From: Brevundimonas sp. G8
GTDB taxonomy: Bacteria; Pseudomonadota; Alphaproteobacteria; Caulobacterales; Caulobacteraceae
Assembly: GCF_902506205.1 (NCBI RefSeq)
Contig: NZ_LR732816.1
Span: 1,869,604 to 1,933,603 of the forward strand
Reading direction: 5' to 3'
DNA length: 64,000 bases
The position numbers and the translations under genes were made by a program. Every line of letters begins with the position of its first letter. The first letter of the stretch is position 1. Shown piece by piece: positions 58,705-61,280 of the stretch. Under the pieces are notes generated by a model, which had not been told where the DNA came from, made no database searches, and saw only the letters and a list, made by a program, of their open reading frames with translations.

Positions 58705-58727
58705 TTATGACACAGGGAGGCAAGACC

Positions 58728-59417
58728 ATGCAAGACGAACAGGCGATCCGCCTGATGGAATCGAAGCGGGCGACGAAATGGCGTTGGGCGATAGGCCTGG
58801 GGGCAGTCAGCACAGCCGCCGTGATCGGCGGCGTCGCGGTCGGGGTTCGGGTCGATGGCGACCTGGCCACCGCTGCGGGCGCGGTGACGGGCGCCGGGGC
58901 CGTGATCCTGGTTGCGGCGCTGGCCTTGGCCTGGTGCACACGGCCAGGACAGTCGGTGGAGGCGCTTATGCGGCGCCAGGGGACAAGCCGAGATCAGTTG
59001 CAGAAGGCGCGGACGCGTCAGTTGATCATCTTCCCCTTCGTCATGCTGGCCTTCATGTTCCAGGCCCATTTGGCCATGCAGCAGGTCCTGGCCGGGCAGG
59101 GGAACTGGGGGCATTATCTGCAGGTGTCCTTGCCGGTCCTGTACGGCTGGGTCGTGCCCCTGATCGTGATGGGTTGGGACTTGACCACGCGAAAGCACCG
59201 CAGCCTGCTGGACGACGAACTGACCCAGTCGATGCGGGCGCAGGCGATGATCCTGGCGTTCGTGGTGCTGATGGGCGGGGCGACGGTCGCTCTGATGCTG
59301 GGCATGTGGCGGCCGGCCTATGGCGTCGCCGCCCTGCCCTATGTGCTGGCCATCGGCGGGGCGACGGCGGGGCTCAGGTTCGCCTGGCTGGATCGGGAGG
59401 CCGAGCGCGGTGGGTGA
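58728..59417 (+). CDS. Integral membrane protein paired with an XRE regulator
   Basis: The 229-residue product (from ATG 58728, with AGGGAGG 7 bases upstream; ATG 58707 is also in frame) has six hydrophobic segments near residues 20-40, 50-70, 100-115, 130-150, 170-190 and 200-218. A soluble stretch RRQGTSRDQLQKARTRQ lies between the second and third. No enzyme motif is seen. The last 8 bases overlap the small XRE gene, so the two are co-translated, as in other small membrane-protein/XRE pairs. Function unknown. Confidence 0.75.
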   Translation: MQDEQAIRLMESKRATKWRWAIGLGAVSTAAVIGGVAVGVRVDGDLATAAGAVTGAGAVILVAALALAWCTRPGQSVEALMRRQGTSRDQLQKARTRQLIIFPFVMLAFMFQAHLAMQQVLAGQGNWGHYLQVSLPVLYGWVVPLIVMGWDLTTRKHRSLLDDELTQSMRAQAMILAFVVLMGGATVALMLGMWRPAYGVAALPYVLAIGGATAGLRFAWLDREAERGG

Positions 59418-59619
59418 TCCGAGATTGGGATCGCGCCTGAAGGAGGCGCGGCTGGCCGCCGAACTGACCCAGGCCGGCCTGGCCGACAAGGCGGGCGTGT
59501 CACGCAAGACCATCAATACGGTCGAGAACGGCGTCTTCGTGCCTTCAACCGTCCTGGCGCTGGAACTGGCGCGGGCGTTGGAGACGACGGTGGAGGCGCT
59601 GTTCTTCCTCAAGGACTGA
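59410..59619 (+). CDS. Small XRE-family HTH regulator
   Basis: The 69-residue product is little more than one helix-turn-helix: LGSRLKEARLAAELTQAGLADKAGVSRKTINTVENGVFVPSTVLALELARALETTVEALFFLKD. It starts at GTG 59410 inside the end of the membrane-protein gene (8-base overlap). It resembles the YozG-type mini-regulators encoded next to membrane proteins, which are likely autoregulated. The nested dyad upstream of the pair is its probable site. Confidence 0.88.
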   Translation: MGDPRLGSRLKEARLAAELTQAGLADKAGVSRKTINTVENGVFVPSTVLALELARALETTVEALFFLKD

Positions 59620-59677
59620 TCCGATCCATGTCCGAAAACCGCGAGACATCGCGGGCCGAGCGGGGCATCCTGTCCTT

Positions 59678-60769
59678 ATGGAACAGCCCCTGGATCAGGA
59701 TGCCTGCTGGCGCGCCGCCGTGGCGCGGGACGCCCGTTTCGACGGGCGTTTCTTCACCGGCGTGACCTCGACCGGGATCTATTGCCGGCCGGTCTGTCCG
59801 GCGCGGACGCCAAAGCGTGAGAATGTCGTGTTTCATCCGACGGCGGCGGCGGCGGAGGAGGCGGGGCTTCGGGCCTGCCTGCGTTGCCGGCCCGAGACCG
59901 CGCCCGAGATGGGCGCCTGGCGCGGCACGTCGAACACCGTCAGCCGCGCCTTGGCGCTGATCGAGGCGGGGGCGCTGGACAGGGGCGATGCGGAGGCGCT
60001 GGCGACCCGGCTGGGCATGGGCGAGCGGCAACTGCGCCGCCTGTTCCGCCAGCACCTGGGCGCCGCCCCGGTCAGCGTGGCCCAGACGCGACGCGTGCTG
60101 CTGGCCAAACAGCTGATCCACGAAAGCGACCTGTCGATGGCCGAGGTGGCGATGGCTTCCGGCTTCGGCAGCGTGCGGCGCTTCAACGAGACCTTTCAGG
60201 CCCTCTACGGCCGCGCGCCGTCGGACCTCCGCCGACGCAAGGTCGAAGGCGAGCCGGGCGGGGTGATCAAGATCAACCTGTCCTACCGGCCGCCCTATGA
60301 CTGGACCGCCATGATGACGACGCTGGCGATCCGCGGCGTCGCGGACGAGGCGGTGGTCGATGGCATATGGACCCGTCGGCTGCGCATCGATGTGGATGGC
60401 ACGGACGGGTCTGTGACGGTGCGCCCCGCCGCCATGGGCAGGGCGGCGGTCGAGGCGCGGGTCTACGAGCTGAAGGCCTTGCCCGGCGTTCTGGCGCGGG
60501 TGCGGCGGGTGTTCGACCTCGCCGCCGATCCCGAGGCGATCACGCGCGACCTGTCGGCCGATCCCGTCCTGCGGGCGGCGGTCGAGGCGCGGCCGGGATT
60601 GCGGCCTGCGGGCGACTGGATCGACGCGGGCGAGGATGCGCCCAGCGACCGGCTGGCGACGACGGATGTCGGACTGCTGGCGCGCGCGGAGCGGTGGCGG
60701 CCGTGGCGAGCCTATGGCGCCCTGTACTGGACCCTGATCGAGGAGCGGCGAGATGACGAAGCAGCCTGA
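59678..60769 (+). CDS. Ada-type methyl-phosphotriester sensor/AraC regulator with a shortened AlkA part
   Basis: The 363-residue product starts with the Ada N-terminal zinc domain (Cys 36, 40, 67 and 70: GIYCRPVCPAR..ACLRC) that accepts methyl groups from phosphotriesters. An AraC-type HTH follows (residues about 85-195: GFGSVRRFNETFQALYGRAPSDLRRRK). Then comes an AlkA-N-like part (INLSYRPPYDWTAMMTTLAIRG). After GLRPAGDW the text jumps to ATTDVGLLARAERWRPWRAYGALYW, normally near the end of an AlkA glycosylase. About 120 residues with the HhH-GPD core seem to be missing. It likely works as a regulator; base excision is doubtful. It overlaps ogt by 17 bases. Confidence 0.9.
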   Translation: MEQPLDQDACWRAAVARDARFDGRFFTGVTSTGIYCRPVCPARTPKRENVVFHPTAAAAEEAGLRACLRCRPETAPEMGAWRGTSNTVSRALALIEAGALDRGDAEALATRLGMGERQLRRLFRQHLGAAPVSVAQTRRVLLAKQLIHESDLSMAEVAMASGFGSVRRFNETFQALYGRAPSDLRRRKVEGEPGGVIKINLSYRPPYDWTAMMTTLAIRGVADEAVVDGIWTRRLRIDVDGTDGSVTVRPAAMGRAAVEARVYELKALPGVLARVRRVFDLAADPEAITRDLSADPVLRAAVEARPGLRPAGDWIDAGEDAPSDRLATTDVGLLARAERWRPWRAYGALYWTLIEERRDDEAA

Positions 60770-61280
60770 GATGCATCTGACCCTGGACCGAATCCCGTCG
60801 CCCGTGGGCGAGGTGCTGGTCGTCACCGACGCGGACGGTGCGGTGCGGGCGCTGGATTTCCACGACTATGAGGCGCGGCTGCTGCTGCTGCTGCGTCGTC
60901 ACTATGGCCAAGTCGTTCTGGTCGAGGGGCGCGCGCCCGAGATCGTGCGTAGGGCCGTCGAGGCCTGGTTCGGCGGAGACCTGACCGCCTTCGACACGGT
61001 CGAGGTGAAGACCGGCGGCACGGAGTTTCAGCGTGCGGTGTGGAAGGCCCTGCGCGAGATCCCCTCTGGTGAGACGCGCACCTATGGCCAGCTCGCCTCG
61101 GCGATCGGCGCGCCCAAGGCGGTGCGGGCGGTCGGTCTGGCCAACGGCGCGAATCCGGTCGGGGTCATCGTGCCCTGCCATCGCGTGATTGGGGCGAACG
61201 GGACGCTGACCGGCTATGCGGGCGGGCTGGAGCGCAAGCGCTGGCTGCTGGCGCACGAGGCCGGCGGTCGATTGCTCTAG
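60753..61280 (+). CDS. ogt: Methylated-DNA--protein-cysteine methyltransferase
   Basis: This suicide enzyme moves a methyl or alkyl group from O6-alkylguanine in DNA to its own Cys. The 175-residue product has VIVPCHRVIGANGTLTGYAGGLERKRWLLAHE with acceptor Cys142, and EFQRAVWKALREIPSGETRTYGQLA before it. The gene overlaps the Ada-like gene by 17 bases, so the two form an adaptive-response operon. ATG 60771 is an alternative start. Confidence 0.96.
   Translation: MTKQPEMHLTLDRIPSPVGEVLVVTDADGAVRALDFHDYEARLLLLLRRHYGQVVLVEGRAPEIVRRAVEAWFGGDLTAFDTVEVKTGGTEFQRAVWKALREIPSGETRTYGQLASAIGAPKAVRAVGLANGANPVGVIVPCHRVIGANGTLTGYAGGLERKRWLLAHEAGGRLL

Follow-up and report, generated by a model that had tools for sequence, protein, structure and literature searches.

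An Ada–AlkA fusion protein of Brevundimonas that has lost its glycosylase core and very probably persists as a methylation-sensing regulator

In the window (the entire 64-kb stretch of Brevundimonas DNA analysed here), a gene for a 363-residue protein with an Ada-type methyl sensor, an AraC-type DNA-binding domain and part of an AlkA glycosylase overlaps an ogt gene, and a candidate operator and promoter lie directly in front of it. The features are as follows.

59630..59648, + strand: operator-like site GTCCGAAAACCGCGAGACA, which adjoins and overlaps the presumed -35 element and ends 29 bp before the ATG
59643..59671, + strand: proposed promoter GAGACA-N17-CATCCT, 6 nt before the ATG, from column conservation in 14 upstream regions with the hexamers picked by eye
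59678..60769, + strand: core-less Ada–AlkA protein, 363 aa, ATG start
59702..59896, + strand: Ada_Zn_binding domain, residues 9–73, with Cys36/40/67/70 (Pfam, E 2.3e-31)
59999..60238, + strand: AraC-type HTH domain, residues 108–187 (Pfam HTH_18, E 3.3e-23)
60272..60616, + strand: AlkA_N model match, residues 199–313 (Pfam, E 2.6e-24)
60617..60682, + strand: junction and linker, residues 314–335, in place of the HhH core (from alignments)
60683..60733, + strand: retained last AlkA helix, residues 336–352, RAERWRPWRAYGALYWT (from alignments and the AlphaFold model)
60753..61280, + strand: ogt, O6-methylguanine-DNA methyltransferase (Pfam, E 3.3e-37; TIGR00589)

With the promoter placed here, the transcript would be leaderless. 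The original prediction described the gene as an Ada-AraC-AlkA fusion without its glycosylase core, overlapped by ogt, and both parts of this description agree with our results. The Ada_Zn_binding, HTH_18 and AlkA_N models all match (the last over what corresponds to domain 1 of AlkA and the leading helices of domain 3), and Pfam gave no HhH-GPD match in the 363-residue protein at E values up to 0.1. The ogt start at 60753 lies inside the end of the regulator gene at 60769, an overlap of 17 bp. Since C36, C40, C67 and C70 are invariant across a 38-row alignment, the four-cysteine methyl sensor is intact. The combination of this sensor with an AraC-type HTH is that of E. coli Ada (1u8b). In contrast to E. 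coli Ada, the methyltransferase is encoded by the separate ogt gene, with no C-terminal methyltransferase domain detected by Pfam in the 363-residue chain, and both the upstream site and two of three B-box contact residues differ (R117 and Q118 replace F114 and H115 of E. coli Ada, by the contact list in PMC3788762). The genome is a single 3.32-Mb contig, in which the next-best matches to the protein query have E 4.4e-4 and 8e-4. We also note that a pair of genes lies directly upstream of the regulator, one encoding a hydrophobic protein (58707-59417) and overlapping a small XRE-type HTH gene (59413-59619; HTH_3, E 9e-12); the DNA at this place is unrelated in three other Brevundimonas loci (L062, L065, L066).

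The extent of the missing core is apparent from comparison with full-length relatives. In the window protein, RPGLRPAGDW runs directly into ...DRLATTDVGLLARAERWRPWRAY, and this direct passage, which had been pointed out in the original prediction, is seen in the translation of the open reading frame. Between RPGLR and WRPW, the 25 full-length relatives with both motifs parsed have 161–170 residues, compared with 33–36 in the Brevundimonas short forms (counts that omit rows without a parsed motif as well as L056 and L060, in which the pattern caught unrelated upstream text). The net loss, between RPGLR and WRPWRAY of the full-length relatives, is thus about 130 residues with the frame kept, close to the HhH-GPD deletion of about 120 residues proposed at the outset. 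Aligned through a full-length relative to 1diz (E 3.9e-40), the shared sequence ends near AlkA residue 111 and restarts near residue 249; the lost part corresponds approximately to residues 112–248 of E. coli AlkA, catalytic Asp238 included. In E. coli AlkA, domain 2 spans approximately residues 113–230, and domain 3 is made up of residues 89–112 and 231–282. The lost part is the HhH domain together with the segment that bears Asp238. We considered the aspartate of the TTDVGLL motif as a retained catalytic residue and rejected it, because the alignments place it where the last helix begins, near AlkA residue 250, and put the Asp238 position within the deleted stretch. The last helix keeps W340, W343 and Y346 and has T352 at the position of Trp272; all three features of an AlkA glycosylase considered (the HhH hairpin, Asp238 and Trp272) are missing from the window protein. 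Judged by these alignments, the catalytic middle of the fused repair enzyme is cleanly lost. Automatic annotation could label such core-less proteins glycosylases despite the absence of the catalytic parts.

The short form is found throughout the genus. In the family search, 122 of 131 Brevundimonas genomes (our own included) matched the gene at E 1e-35, and all of the genus rows examined, a set that excludes carriers G147 and G186, are without the core. Most of them are unbroken to the last helix, with some split by contig ends or by an inserted loop; full-gene rows are 62–94% identical to the window protein, and the short form is present in named isolates of several species. Nine genomes had no match at E 1e-35, and in two of these (G024 and G056; loci L153 and L154) the gene that matches best encodes an Ada-like protein ending in a methyltransferase domain.

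Outside Brevundimonas, 161 genomes of other Caulobacteraceae genera matched, and the listed matches end at query residues 314–317 in open frames of at least 487 aa. A search of the class, in which 48 of 385 genomes matched, revealed short forms in two more genera, g103 and g193. Whole-length short-form rows were present in 49 of 65 g103 genomes (with partial rows in 3 more) and in 6 of 11 g193 genomes; fifteen genes from g103 and five from g193 were read individually. Sister genera in the families of g103 and g193 have full-length genes (L158, L159 and L161; L174). In the phylum sample, 88 of 398 genomes matched, and only Brevundimonas and one g103 genome gave rows extending to query residue 350. 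Some relatives consist of sensor and HTH only (five read; further matches end near residue 190). For second copies of the gene in g103, we considered recoding of an in-frame TGA and rejected it, as five genes are sensor-and-HTH proteins that end there, with no AlkA_N motif found by eye after the TGA in the five copies.

Other genes have lost parts of the enzyme in other ways. L160 (G813; family f70, genus g313), of 451 residues, lacks about 50 residues of the core, the GIGxWT hairpin motif among them, and keeps the catalytic Asp; it is a possible intermediate. Four genes from 'Proteobacteria' MAGs (L105, L110, L112 and L117), which are outside the tree sample, are near full length with the GIGxWT hairpin replaced and the catalytic Asp gone. 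The Trp272 position is Leu in these four and in L160.

Given the size of the missing stretch, we considered that the short form might be an assembly error, a frameshift or a decaying pseudogene. A few damaged copies do exist: the frame of the gene in G013 (L186; a Brevundimonas genome that is 85% complete) breaks within the linker and one g103 gene (L173; G875) has a stop codon in the last helix, each of which may be a real loss or a sequence error, and the G030 gene is split, although at unknown bases (X residues) and with no frameshift. In contrast, the occurrence of the same short form across the genus, in named isolates and at the identities given above, excludes the assembly error that could have overturned the original prediction for the window gene; moreover, dN/dS is below 1 in every region and the upstream site is conserved (see below). 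We regard error or decay as having a negligible chance of being correct.

To estimate how often the core was lost, we used a tree built on residues 4–318 of 92 rows. Brevundimonas is nested among the full-length Caulobacteraceae genes of its own family (97/84, 97/87 and 95/89, then 100/99 for Brevundimonas), and g103 and g193 fall in another clade (100/99) that includes full-length members. If the short form had arisen only once and then spread by horizontal transfer, the short forms should share one origin, and one common origin is not rejected by the AU test on the 92 rows, long branches included (p=0.145), nor is a single g103 and g193 clade on 48 rows (p=0.177). One common origin is rejected, on the other hand, with the 48 rows chosen to be without long branches (p=0.002), and the linker sequences differ between the Brevundimonas, g103 and g193 clades. 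A single origin followed by transfer is thus improbable, and the AU tests and the nesting indicate that the core was probably lost at least twice, perhaps three times.

What remains of the protein appears to be under selection. In 12 Brevundimonas genes, dN/dS was 0.11 for the sensor, 0.09 for the HTH, 0.48 for AlkA_N, 0.17 for the domain-3 helices, 0.30 for the linker, 0.036 for residues 336–350 (the last helix) and 0.53 for the last 13 residues. Across four short-form sets (two of Brevundimonas, one each of g103 and g193), the values were 0.02–0.11 for the sensor, 0.03–0.13 for the HTH, 0.20–0.48 for AlkA_N, 0.10–0.17 for the domain-3 helices and 0.02–0.08 for the last helix. By this measure, with dN/dS below 1 in every region, the remaining regions are under purifying selection. 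The AlkA_N rate in Brevundimonas (0.33–0.48) exceeds that in four full-length sets (0.11–0.30; three sets of three genes each and one of five rows, of which two are second copies from the same contigs), and a part of the module may therefore be weakly constrained; these rates describe an AlkA_N that is relaxed yet still constrained in Brevundimonas.

In the last helix, the active-site Trp272 position sets the short forms apart. In counts of distinct but related rows, which are not independent events, 56 of 61 full-length rows have W there, against none of 79 short rows (60 Brevundimonas-type, 14 g103 and 5 g193). The positions of Trp260, Trp263 and Tyr266 are W, W and Y in all 79 short rows, although the helix search pattern itself required similar residues there (W/L/F, W/Y and Y/F, respectively). 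Eight of 163 rows had no match to this pattern and were dropped: L173 with its stop codon, five fragments or broken frames (L078, L099, L109, L123 and L050), a sensor-and-HTH protein (L044), and L103, which carries WIPWRAYAAMYLW.

An AlphaFold model of the window protein (mean pLDDT 81.6, pTM 0.69) speaks to the fold of the remnant. Residues 195–358 of the model superpose on E. coli AlkA 3ogd with a Z of 15.4 (155 aligned, rmsd 2.4), and thus the two remaining AlkA domains, 1 and 3, are predicted to stay packed despite the missing domain 2, with the caveat that the model may reproduce a remembered AlkA fold. The likeness to E. coli AlkA is confined to these two domains, as the window protein no longer has domain 2, the Asp238 segment or Trp272.

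We considered that the AlkA remnant might be a mere structural hanger-on, such that the sensor and HTH do all of the work and the remnant persists because further cuts would unfold the protein. In keeping with this idea, AlkA_N is the fastest-evolving folded part in the 12 Brevundimonas genes, the sensor-and-HTH-only relatives argue that the module is dispensable in principle, and in the short forms L173 and L186 the damage falls near the last helix. The low dN/dS of the last helix and of the domain-3 helices in all four short-form sets argues against it. We consider such a passive remnant quite plausible, with somewhat less than an even chance of being right.

The upstream DNA contains a site that is conserved with the gene. 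The first 16 bases of the operator-like site are found exactly upstream in 58 of 60 distinct Brevundimonas-type short rows, and with one mismatch in one more; the remaining row (L111) is a contig-start fragment without upstream DNA. In comparison, among 3000 random 235-bp stretches from the window, none had a match with up to two mismatches and seven had one with three. The site is also present within three mismatches in 14 of 14 g103 rows, 5 of 5 g193 rows, 51 of 62 full-length rows and 5 of 7 partial rows kept outside the groups. The full 19-mer is matched exactly in 51 of 180 loci, a single time in each (with some genomes represented twice), and has a single match in the window. For scanning sequences, the site can be written as GTCCGAAAACCGCGAG, and a conserved site of 16–19 bp offers a way to approach Ada–AlkA regulons in alphaproteobacteria by sequence. 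We found no description of this site in the literature searched.

The arrangement of the site relative to ogt is informative. Of the 17 full-length loci whose ogt lies on the opposite strand, 15 carry a second, inverted copy of the site, compared with 0 of the 29 whose ogt shares the strand; this inverted copy is also found in 3 of 16 full-length loci without ogt in the stretch and in none of the 79 short forms. Upstream of full-length genes, facing copies can be seen in L130, L131 and L081, for example, mostly with a divergent ogt. Since the inverted copy accompanies divergent ogt, the pattern fits a candidate site that drives both the regulator and ogt, with one copy per promoter. A wider regulon is unsupported, because the site was not found, at up to five mismatches, in the stretches of the own genome that hold small AlkA (described below), Tag, two AlkB-type genes, Nth and MutY; the same scan of the window and these repair-gene stretches gave four sites, all in the window, of which only that at 59630 is exact.

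We also considered that the remnant might dock Ogt, so that an E. coli-like Ada would be reassembled from two chains, the regulator and Ogt. In support of this, M. smegmatis Ada-AlkA elutes together with Ogt as a complex (PMC7432924), and an ogt match lies on the same strand in the fetched stretches of 60 of 60 distinct Brevundimonas-type loci and 13 of 14 g103 loci. In contrast, none of the five g193 short forms has ogt in its fetched stretch, and the module is nonetheless kept there. We think that docking of Ogt is unlikely to explain the remnant.

If the fused glycosylase is gone, another enzyme might remove 3-methyladenine. The own genome encodes Tag, two AlkB-type matches and a 217-aa stand-alone HhH-GPD protein (small AlkA), whose best solved match is 2yg8 (E 1.6e-27), presumably the AlkA of Deinococcus radiodurans treated in PMC3788762. 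At E 1e-25, small AlkA was found in 206 of 388 family genomes (the search drew 388 of 390) and in 119 of 122 carriers of the short form; among the other three carriers, G179 and G192 are listed without small AlkA and G029 is missing from both lists shown. Among the other genera of the family, 5 of 161 genomes with an Ada–AlkA-type match (at least one of which, G224, is a sensor-and-HTH match only) also have small AlkA, versus 74 of 98 without such a match, an exclusion with a Fisher p of 5e-37 when relatedness is ignored. The two kinds of gene are thus almost mutually exclusive there; within genus g29, 1 genome has both, 36 have Ada–AlkA only, 32 have small AlkA only and 6 have neither. From these distributions, the two glycosylases look interchangeable, in which case the core would be dispensable in Brevundimonas.

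Taken together, the loss of the core, purifying selection on the rest, the conserved site and a backup AlkA indicate that the gene very probably encodes a functional regulator that senses methylation and has shed its glycosylase. The suggestion of an adaptive-response regulator without its repair enzyme therefore stands as the best reading of the sequence, with the cysteines intact, the operator-like site conserved and the core gone. We hold with considerable confidence that the gene derives from a full-length Ada–AlkA and acts as an Ada-type methylation sensor and activator, in which AlkA domains 1 and 3 form a non-catalytic folded module. By analogy with E. coli Ada, Cys36 would take a methyl group from a DNA methylphosphotriester. 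The methylated protein would then bind GTCCGAAAACCGC, adjoining the -35 element of its own promoter, and recruit RNA polymerase, as the position of the site and the AraC-type HTH suggest. One transcript would carry the regulator and the overlapping ogt, and 3-methyladenine would be removed by the separate Deinococcus-type small AlkA and by Tag, whose genes are present.

Thus, in a fused stress regulator, sensing appears to have been split from repair by deletion, and probably more than once. The similar losses in other bacteria suggest that the enzyme half of the fusion may serve a second, non-catalytic purpose. Tentatively, we propose that AlkA domains 1 and 3 have a role independent of the glycosylase (for example, contact with RNA polymerase, dimerisation or docking of Ogt), and that lineages with a further 3-methyladenine glycosylase have repeatedly removed or inactivated the catalytic domain and kept the module, a proposal that we consider possible and on the whole rather doubtful. 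If it is correct, the core-less genes (Brevundimonas, g103 and g193), the partly deleted L160 and the dead-core L105, L110, L112 and L117 would represent stages from an enzyme to a regulatory pseudoenzyme. A testable question is then whether or not the AlkA part of Ada–AlkA contributes to transcription.

Ada-AlkA fusions have been described already (PMC1839093 and PMC7432924), and a survey of Ada architectures was built on the four domains of E. coli Ada (PMC10957082). We found no description of the core-less variant in the literature, including the accessible parts of PMC10957082, PMC1839093, PMC7432924, PMC10140301 and PMC3788762; relatives share the short form, and a known function for it was likewise not found there. 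The mycobacterial Ada-AlkA (PMC7432924) is similar in that an Ada sensor is fused to AlkA and ogt is separate, but it has the HhH-GPD core and catalytic Asp that the window protein is without. Caulobacter Cada2 is, likewise, an alphaproteobacterial adaptive-response regulator; in contrast, it has no zinc sensor, is activated via methylation of its own methyltransferase cysteine and has motifs GCAA and CGG (PMC10957082). A shared layout is seen in Bacillus subtilis AdaA/AdaB, two genes with an 11-bp overlap, in which a regulator without a repair domain is likewise followed by an overlapping methyltransferase gene (PMC1839093). Unlike AdaA/AdaB, the window protein continues after the HTH into an AlkA remnant of about 165 residues that is predicted to be folded.
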